Positions 6,513 to 9,386 of a stretch of 64,000 nucleotides of DNA are shown in pieces. A program made the position numbers and the translations under genes. Every line of letters starts with the position of its first letter. Position 1 is the stretch's first letter. The notes beneath the pieces were generated by a model that was not told the origin of the DNA, ran no database searches, and was given only the letters and a program-made list of their open reading frames with translations. This stretch comes from Polytrichum commune. Taxonomy: Eukaryota > Streptophyta > Polytrichopsida > Polytrichales > Polytrichaceae. The stretch lies in the NCBI GenBank assembly GCA_950295325.1, contig OX485804.1, positions 59,426,533-59,490,532 of the forward strand, given 5' to 3'.

Positions 6513-9386
6513 ATGTTTTCCTTCGTGCGTAATCGCGCGGCCACTTCCGAAGATGACGAAGCTTCATGGTGGAGCGATCATTCCAGCGACACCGGAGATG
6601 GCGAAGATGATTCATCGTGGAGTGAGGATGCTTCGGCCAAAATAGATGGTGATGACGAAGGCGGAGAGAGCGACGGCAGGAGGGAGAGAGAGGGGAAGTA
6701 TACGTGTTCGGTGTGTGGAATGTGTCTCCACAAACCCGCGTTGCTGAAGCAGCACATGGCTTCCCACTCTGACAAGGTAAGCGCATAGCGTTAGGGTTAA
6801 GAGTTTGTGTGGCTTGGAGCTCTTTTTGATGCGTTGCCGATTGTCTTTAGTGTGTTTTGGATGTATTGTAAGCCTTTGAGAATTGCTTTTGAAATAGTGC
6901 CGGTAGTTCCATATGTGGGCATTGTTGATTGCCTATGTTGGAAGAGGGTCCTGGAGTTAGGGTTGGGTAGGGTTTTGGTTACATAGGATTTGAGTTTATG
7001 AGAATATTTTGTTGAATTGGTGGCGTTGGCTTTTTTTCAAGAAATGAACAGGTTGCGACTTGGAGAAACTAAGGCCTACCAGATCCCATCCGAACTCTGA
7101 AGTCAAGGTGCCTTAGGCTGGATTAGTACTGGGAAGGTAGCAACCCTCCCGGGAACATCCGGTGCTTCATTCTCCTACTACTTTACTTATTATGTCACTA
7201 CTGATGGATTTGCTCTGTGATGCTGCTGCTCACAGTGATTGTATTGGAGAAACTAAGGCCTACCAGATCCCATCCGAACTCTGAAGTCAAGGTGCCTTAG
7301 ACTGGATTAGTACTTGGAGGGTAATAACCTCCGAGGAACATCCAGTTTCTTCAATCTCCTTTTCCTTATATTATTGTTGATGATTTTCTCTATGATGCTG
7401 CTTCTTACAGCAATTATTTGTTCTGGAGAATCTTGCTGTTAGGGATGTACGACTTGTGAGATGTGTTTTTGGGTAACTCGCCCAAAAACTGGTCAATGAA
7501 CTTCATGATATGAGCTATTTTAGAAAGTAAAGTTGTTGCAAGCTGTGAGAGTGAATCACTAAGACTCTCAGCTCTGCTTGTATTGCAGAGACCATACACA
7601 TGTCCTGTGGAGAATTGTGGCAAATCTTACAAGCGACAAGATCATCTCAATCGCCACTCTCTAACTCACAAAGGGAAGCTTTTCATGTGCCCAGTGAAGG
7701 GTTGTGATGTTTCATTCACGATGAGTTCTAATCTTCAGAGACACGTGGGTCTGCATGAGAAATGGGACTCAGAGTTGCTCTCAGGACAGAAAGGAGTAGC
7801 ATCTGACAGTTTGAAGTGCCCAGAACCTTGCTGTGGCAAAAAGTTCAAGTACCCATCACTTCTACAGACCCACATGGAGAATGTTCATGGTTAGTTTCAT
7901 ACCCACCCCAGTTCTGGCATGTGACCTTTCATCATGTAATGATTTTGTAGCTATGTTGTTGTGGCTTGGTAGGTGGTATTTGATCATCTGGGCGAGCCTT
8001 GTTTTCTGATGTTTGTGCTAGATTAGATATGTTTAGGAGTTATCCTACTAACAAGGCTGAAATGTCACACAGAAGAAAATCTAAGTGATGCTTGACCAAC
8101 TTGAAATGTTGATTTTCTGAACTTATTTTCCTTTGGGTATGCAATGCAGAGGCCATGGTGGTTGACCAGGTAGTGTGCATGGAACCGGGGTGTGGGGAGG
8201 TATTTGCTGATGTTTCTCAGCTACAAGCACACCGCAAATTGTCACATTGTCATGTCGTCTGTGATGTATGTGGCTTATCCATGTTGAGAAGACAGCTGAA
8301 GATGCACATTTTACTGCACACTGGAGGAGCTCCTCGGATCCAGTGCCCTCATCCTGGTTGTCTGCATACATATAGCTCGGTATGGTTCCTAGCTTCATTT
8401 GAGCACATCCTTGCATTTCTGTGGTTATAGGACTATGTGGTACATATGTTATTGTGAGGTGCACTGGCAGCCAAATACTGAGAGGATACATAAGCAGTTT
8501 GTCAGTCAAGTGAGTCCCTTTGGATGCAAATTTCTGTCCCTCACCAAGTAACATTCAGAGATGAAGGAATTAAGATGCTGGAATGAGAGTCAGTGTGCAA
8601 ACATGTTCAGATCATGAATAGGCTTGGTCATCCTCCATGAGGTGTGCATTACTAGGTGATTGATATTTATAAGATGATCTGTTTTCAGAAGTCCAATTTG
8701 GACACACACATCAGAGCAGTTCATATGGAGTTAAAGCCTTACAAGTGCTCACAGTGCACTATGCGAACTCCATACAAGGTTGTGCGTGACAAGCATGAAG
8801 CTGTTGTTCACTCCCAGCCATCAGAGGTACTAAAAGTGTTGCACTCAATTCTAGTAAACCATCATCTCTTCATTGTGGAAAGTGTGCATACATGAGGTCT
8901 TAGTTCTCACACATGTGACAAGGCTTCTCCAGTTGGCTGTACGTTTCCTTCACATTGGATTTACTTCTTGATAGGAATGTAACTCTTATGTCTTCAGGAG
9001 CAAGTATTTTCTTATAGGTTATTCAAGTCTAAGTGTACAACAATGATATACGAGCTATTTTTTGGTGATAGGTGTCTAAATCAATGTTTCTGGTTCTCTT
9101 AGGAATATATTGTGCTCAAAGAGCACAGTGACCTACTTTGCAGCAGGTCTCATGGCAAAGAACGTTCTGAACTAATACTACCATCTCTCAAAATTGACCT
9201 ATTCATTGACATTACTTCTGGCTGGTACAGGTTGTAGATTTTGAAGCTGAAGATATTGAATTTAGAATGCGACCACGAGGTGGCAGGAAACGTGTTATGA
9301 TTCAACATGTTGATGACCTTTTTGCCAAACGATCTGCCTTCAAAGTCCTGTCGGAGTTGTCAGGAAGGAAGTGTCAGTCTTGCTAA
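6513..9386 (+). CDS. TFIIIA: Transcription factor IIIA, C2H2 zinc-finger 5S rRNA gene factor
   Basis: TFIIIA binds the internal promoter of 5S rRNA genes and 5S rRNA itself. Predicted coding exons are 6513-6776, 7589-7889, 8150-8379, 8689-8826 and 9231-9386, all with GT-AG junctions and matching phases, giving 362 aa. An acidic N-terminus (residues about 8-58) is followed by eight C2H2 fingers: finger 1 alone in exon 1 (CSVC..H..H), fingers 2-4 in exon 2, 5-6 and half of 7 in exon 3, the rest of 7 and 8 in exon 4. The last exon has a basic RPRGGRKR typical of plant TFIIIA. The family usually has nine fingers; I count eight. ATG 6513 is the first in frame after a stop near 6424. Intron 1 carries two 5S-rRNA mimics, which are described separately. 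Confidence 0.9.
7052..7161 (+). promoter_or_regulatory. 5S rRNA mimic (P5SM) poison exon, copy 1
   Basis: The segment reads like 5S rRNA: 'gatcccatccgaactc' (helix III/loop B), 'ttagtactggga' and 'ctcccgggaac' (helix IV side). In land plants such an element inside TFIIIA pre-mRNA is an alternatively spliced exon, bound by ribosomal protein L5 (uL18), which causes its skipping. Here an acceptor 'aacag' ends at 7051 and a donor gt lies at 7162-7163, giving a 110-nt cassette. Entering in phase 0 after exon 1, it reads six codons and then TAA, so inclusion truncates TFIIIA after finger 1 and should trigger decay. The element identity is strong; the exact splice sites are my reading. Confidence 0.88.
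7236..7344 (+). promoter_or_regulatory. 5S rRNA mimic (P5SM) poison exon, copy 2
   Basis: A second, tandem copy starts 184 bp after the first. About 50 bases from 'ggagaaactaagg' on are nearly identical. An acceptor 'ctcacag' ends at 7235 and a gt donor lies at 7345, giving a 109-nt cassette. The first codon after the acceptor in phase 0 is TGA. The helix IV region differs from copy 1 yet still pairs: 'cttggagg' at about 7312 can pair with 'cctccgag' at about 7328, including one G-U. That argues against simple decay. Alternatively it is a recent duplicate with no role of its own. Confidence 0.82.
7345..7440 (+). repeat. Trailing edge of the 5S-mimic tandem duplication
   Basis: The sequence before copy 2 ('gatgctgctgctcacag.gatt', about 7218-7240) recurs after copy 2 as 'gatgctgcttcttacagcaatt' (about 7393-7415), followed by 'tggagaatc', a stub resembling the mimic start. 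This marks a unit of about 184 bp duplicated head to tail and leaves a spare 'cttacag' acceptor at about 7410. Confidence 0.65.

Follow-up and report, generated by a model that had tools for sequence, protein, structure and literature searches.

The closest described system is P5SM of the TFIIIA gene, a 5S-like element carried by an alternatively used exon, the inclusion of which leads to a stop while its skipping gives the full-length protein (as set out in passages of PMC6164485, PMC5568362, PMC5972288 and PMC4538838). The same passages have the mimic included by default, with a stop that is premature, and the exon skipped on binding of L5; in one published model, given in a section of PMC4538838, L5 acts by displacing a splice factor. 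On the side of the ligand, the part of the review PMC6164485 that treats RPL5 has the protein binding 5S rRNA at helix II and loop C. P5SM is counted among the few structured RNAs known to control plant splicing (in a passage of PMC12218528), and Fu et al. 2009, according to a passage of PMC4374538, compared the mimic-exon event in mosses among others. The element has also been engineered: the HyP5SM suicide-exon cassette is a single P5SM exon layered with a promoter, and the account of it in PMC4538838 includes the argument that two leaky controls, when layered, make for a tighter off state.

The moss locus described here follows the same plan, its usage being predicted, and departs from it in number. 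Unlike the single-copy P5SM, it has two mimics in head-to-tail order, each with its own acceptor and its own stop, and both within one intron of TFIIIA. Like 5S rRNA (RF00001), the two match the covariance model over its whole length and fold around a three-way junction; unlike 5S rRNA, they are degenerate in helix I and in loop D/helix IV and lie inside the intron of a protein gene. The predicted stop comes once a single finger has been encoded, out of eight counted by pattern, whereas the passage in the review PMC6164485 puts it after the first two (of nine). HyP5SM, as described in the same part of PMC4538838, is likewise a P5SM poison exon under the control of L5, a control that we would expect here too, but where the cassette combines an engineered exon with a promoter, the moss intron layers two natural mimics.

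A sequence-only reading of this DNA had supposed that only single copies were on record, and the published accounts do, in their passages on the mimic, give one per gene. Two mimics in one gene are not mentioned in passages of PMC6164485, PMC4538838, PMC4374538, PMC5568362, PMC5972288, PMC12218528, PMC12857756, PMC8617911 and PMC5423905. The kind of element is known and the tandem arrangement may be new, an earlier mention of two copies in a moss being possible. A natural duplicate is a ready experiment on how two poison-exon sensors in series affect the leak, threshold and steepness of a feedback on ribosome supply; a duplicated P5SM could also guide the design of tighter suicide-exon tools, and the locus shows that a gene can survive duplication of the element.

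The host gene and its two 5S-like elements

The window, by which we mean the whole 64-kb stretch of DNA that was analysed, corresponds to C2:59426533-59490532 in an assembly totalling 407.8 Mb; positions without a contig name are counted within it, and all features that we describe there are on the forward strand. Contigs C1-C7, of 42-78 Mb each, sum to about 406 of the 407.8 Mb, which points to seven chromosomes. C8, the presumed chloroplast contig, encodes a PsaB with 8htu, 6l35 and 7ksq, Physcomitrium patens entries, as its three best PDB matches (1700.6-1704.6 bits, the next at 1667.2); we take the organism for a moss, perhaps one of the Polytrichaceae. A gene of five exons, with all introns of the GT-AG type, encodes a protein of 362 aa. 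Exon 1 (6513..6776) supplies the ATG, an acidic N-terminus and the first zinc finger and ends in phase 0 at the donor AAG/GTAAGC; intron 1 (6777..7588), which contains both 5S mimics, is followed by exon 2 (7589..7889), exon 3 (8150..8379), exon 4 (8689..8826) and exon 5 (9231..9386), the last including the stop codon. Besides the eight C2H2 fingers found by pattern, a Pfam search of the protein matched four families of the C2H2 type, two with scores above the cut-off, and its PDB matches comprise many C2H2 proteins, including entries named transcription factor IIIA. Two such entries are among the best matches, 1tf6 (E 3.4e-23) and 8ffz (E 3.1e-19, residues 63-308). From the PDB matches, together with the 5S mimic within the intron, we clearly identify the host gene, on grounds of similarity, as TFIIIA. 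A search of the genome with exon 2 gave seven matches, two of them long (C2 and C4) and five short (65-76 nt); since the long matches are confined to C2 and C4, where the copy is decayed (see below), the window gene is the only intact TFIIIA found.

That the first coding intron of this gene holds two 5S mimics, as had been claimed from the letters of the sequence, is borne out by cmscan against Rfam release 15, in which both exceed the gathering score of 38 for RF00001: copy 1 at 7061..7170 (46.0 bits, E 2.2e-6) and copy 2 at 7243..7356 (51.9 bits, E 6.2e-8). They are the only Rfam matches at gathering threshold in the 64-kb window, and a permissive Rfam scan of 6700-7700 produced one further match, snoU13, with an E of 0.5. 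The covariance search had been proposed with a P5SM model; both copies pass with RF00001, so that the refuting outcome named beforehand, a score for one copy alone, did not arise, but for either element Rfam release 15 reported 5S_rRNA only and no P5SM family. In score and in sequence the mimics stand apart from true 5S genes of this genome, their bit scores comparing with 98.0-109.6 for the best 12 5S matches; copy 1 is 75-80% identical to the 8 of these 12 with which it was compared.

The two elements lie in a direct repeat of 132 nt with 82% identity and a spacing of 184, which a second repeat of 34 nt continues at a spacing of 175. Both the first unit (7061..7244, 184 nt) and the second (7245..7423) start with TGGAGA, and as a third TGGAGA stands at 7424, the sequence suggests that the tandem pair arose by duplication between short direct repeats (TGGAGA at 7061, 7245 and 7424). 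If so, the acceptor of the second cassette would derive from sequence downstream of the ancestral single mimic. The offset from acceptor to mimic (TTGGAG) is exactly 8 nt in both copies, the 8 nt themselves being unrelated.

As RNA, both copies fold into a three-arm junction like that of 5S rRNA. The fold of copy 2 is matched by none of its shuffles (z -4.09, 0/200 as good) and that of copy 1 is no better than shuffles (z -1.17, 26/200 as good). Because MAFFT shifts the 3' ends of alignments A2 and A3 by one base, motifs served to place the helices for counting; across helices I, II, V and IV, 188/196 cells (28 pairs in each of seven copies) are standard pairs, and four of the eight exceptions are the outermost helix I pair in mimics of the copy-1 type. 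Helix III was set by motif rather than measured, and its columns are invariant in the alignment. Alignment A2 holds the mimics and 11 of the 12 best among at least 29 RF00001 matches in the genome, and by alignment the helix III/loop C region of the mimics is almost the same as in the 5S genes of this genome. Six helix pairs differ between the window copies. Four of them can still pair, one thanks to two changes at once (G-C to U-G), and the other two are disrupted in copy 1. The same copy lacks the outermost helix I pair and has a helix IV A-C mismatch that is absent from the other six copies. The keeping of pairs amounts to a handful of changes, mostly transitions on one side only, a kind of change that often leaves pairing intact in any case, and we claim no significance for it. 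At 7130-7138, window copy 1 is alone among the seven mimics in having A for G in helix IV, and this A makes the AAG/GTAGCA; the decayed copies, with GGG or GGC in that context, are further from the donor consensus.

Candidate splice sites and modelled messages

Cassettes of 109-110 nt had been proposed for the two copies, and the dinucleotides that would bound them exist, with AG before 7052 and 7236 and GT after 7161 and 7344. The premature stops are also as proposed: cassette 1 (7052..7161, 110 nt) has TAA after six codons, and in cassette 2 (7236..7344, 109 nt) the first codon is TGA. The donors of these cassettes are the weaker part of the proposal. When scored with a plant consensus matrix written by hand, the originally proposed donors at 7162 and 7345 reach 0.02 and -3.03, whereas two other GT, at 7137 (2.25) and 7321 (2.22), come out at the top of all GT in 7045-7588; with the same matrix, the four constitutive donors of the gene score 1.6-6.19. 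The two better sites, AAG/GTAGCA in copy 1 (7137..7138) and AGG/GTAATA in copy 2 (7321..7322), are homologous, and each is placed apically in helix IV of its mimic. Judged on sequence, it may be that these donors are the ones used and that both cassettes measure 85 nt (7052-7136 and 7236-7320); the length of the mimic exon also varies in soybean, in the account given in a passage of PMC5568362. On the acceptor side, the AG of cassette 2 ends a segment within repeat unit 1 that also provides a branch-like CTGAT and a pyrimidine-rich tract (7201..7235), and its homologue, a third acceptor-like AG, follows repeat unit 2 (7409..7410).

We modelled eight inclusion isoforms, covering either cassette, both and the long composite with either donor set, each isoform using a single donor set throughout. 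All eight stop at 88 or 94 aa, and the only modelled form encoding TFIIIA is the one that skips both cassettes, with 362 aa. Nonsense-mediated decay of the inclusion isoform is a feature of P5SM; in the inclusion messages modelled here, 0.9-1.1 kb of CDS, with the later exon junctions, would follow the first stop. Each inclusion isoform also has a downstream in-frame ATG from which a 242-aa C-terminal form could possibly be made, and this is, speculatively, reminiscent of the TFIIIA-7ZF isoform in a passage of the review PMC6164485.

Burial of the donors in the fold was considered as evidence of regulation and rejected, the donors being no more paired than other GT sites. In folds of 115 nt, the originally proposed donors, located in helix V/I, are mostly paired at 0.8-1.0; once 100-nt flanks are included, they average 0.68 and 0.72, compared with 0.62-0.86 for the four constitutive donors and with a mean of 0.61 and a 95th percentile of 0.87 for 112 background GT. 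The donors at 7137 and 7321 are less paired, at 0.43 and 0.34.

Proposed poison exons in series, and other readings of the pair

The reading that we put forward, and hold to be evenly balanced between right and wrong, is that the sole intact TFIIIA found carries a tandemly duplicated P5SM that works as two poison exons in series, both relieved by L5. Carried over from the published single-copy system, each mimic would be included by default as a poison exon, and excess free ribosomal protein L5 would bind the mimic and cause the exon to be skipped. With two in series, both must be skipped for full-length TFIIIA, and its output would therefore be the product of two skipping probabilities. It is by analogy with that system that we expect both copies to be used, and to be used through L5.

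The idea that two sensors could sharpen the response to L5, part of the original suggestion, holds to a slight degree: in a model of independent identical sites, the EC90/EC10 ratio goes from 80.9 to 39.9, equivalent to an effective Hill coefficient of 1.19. The larger effect is on the leak, which, as a matter of arithmetic, is squared by two sites in series. Because the leak is squared while the effective Hill coefficient is so modest, the model makes a tighter off state the likelier benefit, with only a slight sharpening of the L5 response, and in this it agrees with the layering argument in the relevant part of PMC4538838. A bolder version, which we regard as doubtful, would make the locus a natural RNA AND gate, in which TFIIIA is made only when L5 sits on both mimics, both are kept by selection, the work is shared unequally between the better-folded copy 2 and copy 1 with the better of the originally proposed donors, and the donors are displayed in apical helix IV. 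The genome has two L5-like loci, at C4:29.81 Mb and C7:35.46 Mb; the possibility of a mimic in the L5 gene as well was discarded, neither locus being near any of the at least 29 RF00001 matches listed.

A substantial minority of our confidence goes to a simpler arrangement, in which one copy is a working poison exon and the other a passive duplicate or, at most, an unspliced extra site for L5. Duplication of intron sequence between short repeats is an ordinary event, and each copy has its own weakness, copy 2 having the poorest of the originally proposed donors (-3.03), whereas copy 1 folds less well and scores lower as a mimic. A passive duplicate fits less well with the fact that neither copy has been lost and that each retains an AG acceptor, a stop in the same frame and a fair donor (2.25 and 2.22). 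It also fits less well with the pattern of divergence within the repeat. The 5' halves of the two window mimics are identical at 56/56 positions (the full stretch of identity spans 57 nt), and the 3' halves at 38/45 aligned positions with 2 gaps, while the repeat spacer is identical at 56/73 aligned positions (77%) with 16 gaps. A Fisher test of the 5' half against the spacer (56:0 vs 56:17) gives p 2.9e-5, a value that is descriptive since the 56-nt boundary was chosen after inspection of the sequence. Helix II and helix III/loop C both fall within the identical half. As the 5' halves have stayed identical while the spacer has diverged, the sequence suggests that both copies are under selection or are subject to gene conversion, and this identity is the best evidence that neither may have been free to drift since the duplication. 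The part of the argument that appeals to selection is weakened by the alternative, as gene conversion could produce the same identity.

Rather improbable, in our judgement, is that the copies are not independent gates but form one composite poison exon (e.g., 7052-7320, 7052-7344 or a retained inner intron) or a pair of mutually exclusive exons. The inner intron would be just 74 nt with the donor at 7162, or 99 nt with that at 7137, a branch-like CTGAT some 40 nt past donor 7162 could hinder splicing between the copies, and composite inclusion likewise stops at 94 aa; on the other hand, lengths of 74-99 nt are workable for a plant intron, and the acceptor of the second cassette has a good pyrimidine tract.

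Paralogous loci and other 5S-like sequences

A search by DNA match shows the mimic pair again at C4 (54347753 and 54347952) and at C7 (14288303 and 14288123), within decayed TFIIIA copies at C4:54345000-54352500 (L015) and C7:14284500-14290500 (L005). Both are, in pieces, 88-95% identical to the window locus and begin at the equivalent of position 6637 in exon 1, and the blocks upstream of them are 91.6% alike over 1076 nt; the common start in exon 1 and the shared upstream block suggest a duplicated chimeric block. At C4, exon 2 has a 2-nt gap and a stop in its best frame, and its 3' end is divergent; at C7, exon 2 is absent and exon 4 is gapped and has lost its AG. The upstream block at C7 holds a short reading frame, which we take to resemble the N-terminus of TAF5.

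Five of the six mimics at C2, C4 and C7 pass the Rfam cut-off, the second copy at C4 falling just under it (37.2 vs 38), and the differences that tell copy 1 from copy 2 are common to all three loci, which are on chromosome-sized contigs. With two decayed paralogues carrying the same pair, the duplication cannot be put down to chance or to an error in the local assembly, the latter a danger that the sequence-only reading had itself raised. An artefact of assembly, or an error of recent copying, has a negligible chance of explaining the pair, given its recurrence with the same copy-specific differences at three places on contigs C2, C4 and C7 and the difference between the two copies at 18% of 132 nt.

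Within the paralogues, the 5' halves of the two copies are identical at 56/56 positions on C7 and at 53/56 on C4; spacer counts for C7 were left out, the alignment running past a deletion in unit 2. The decayed C7 locus, which has kept all 56 and is too young for much divergence, does not decide between selection and gene conversion. When the loci are compared with the window, copy 1 differs at 8/110 positions on C4 and 6/110 on C7, copy 2 at 4/109 and 2/109, and the upstream intron at 15/273 and 14/274; by these counts alone, neither cassette is clearly more conserved between loci than the rest of intron 1.

A fourth place, on C1 (L016 4340-4551; 41.3 bits), holds mimic copy 1 only, together with about 93 nt of upstream intron, and no TFIIIA exons matched beside it in 8 kb of C1. 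This mimic has lost the donor GT at the helix V position. Searches with exact core patterns found no match in either viral_contigs or genome_contigs, which is unsurprising for collections without plants.

None of the seven exon 2 matches is a spliced retrocopy of TFIIIA, the five short pieces sitting in dispersed repeats. These pieces, of 65-76 nt and corresponding to 7701-7776 of the window, recur at five places with 89-94% identity, inside two repeats that are otherwise dissimilar (L032/L033 and L034/L035/L036), and resemble a gene fragment captured by mobile elements. Among the other 5S-like loci of the genome, one at C2:52.46 Mb (L014 751-1681) has LSU rRNA followed some 220 nt later by a degenerate 5S of 63 bits; linkage of LSU and 5S rDNA is a bryophyte feature. 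Two more, L007 and L009, have their 5S-like elements in a 1.2-kb stretch that is 96% identical between C2 and C5 and is perhaps a 5S-derived repeat.
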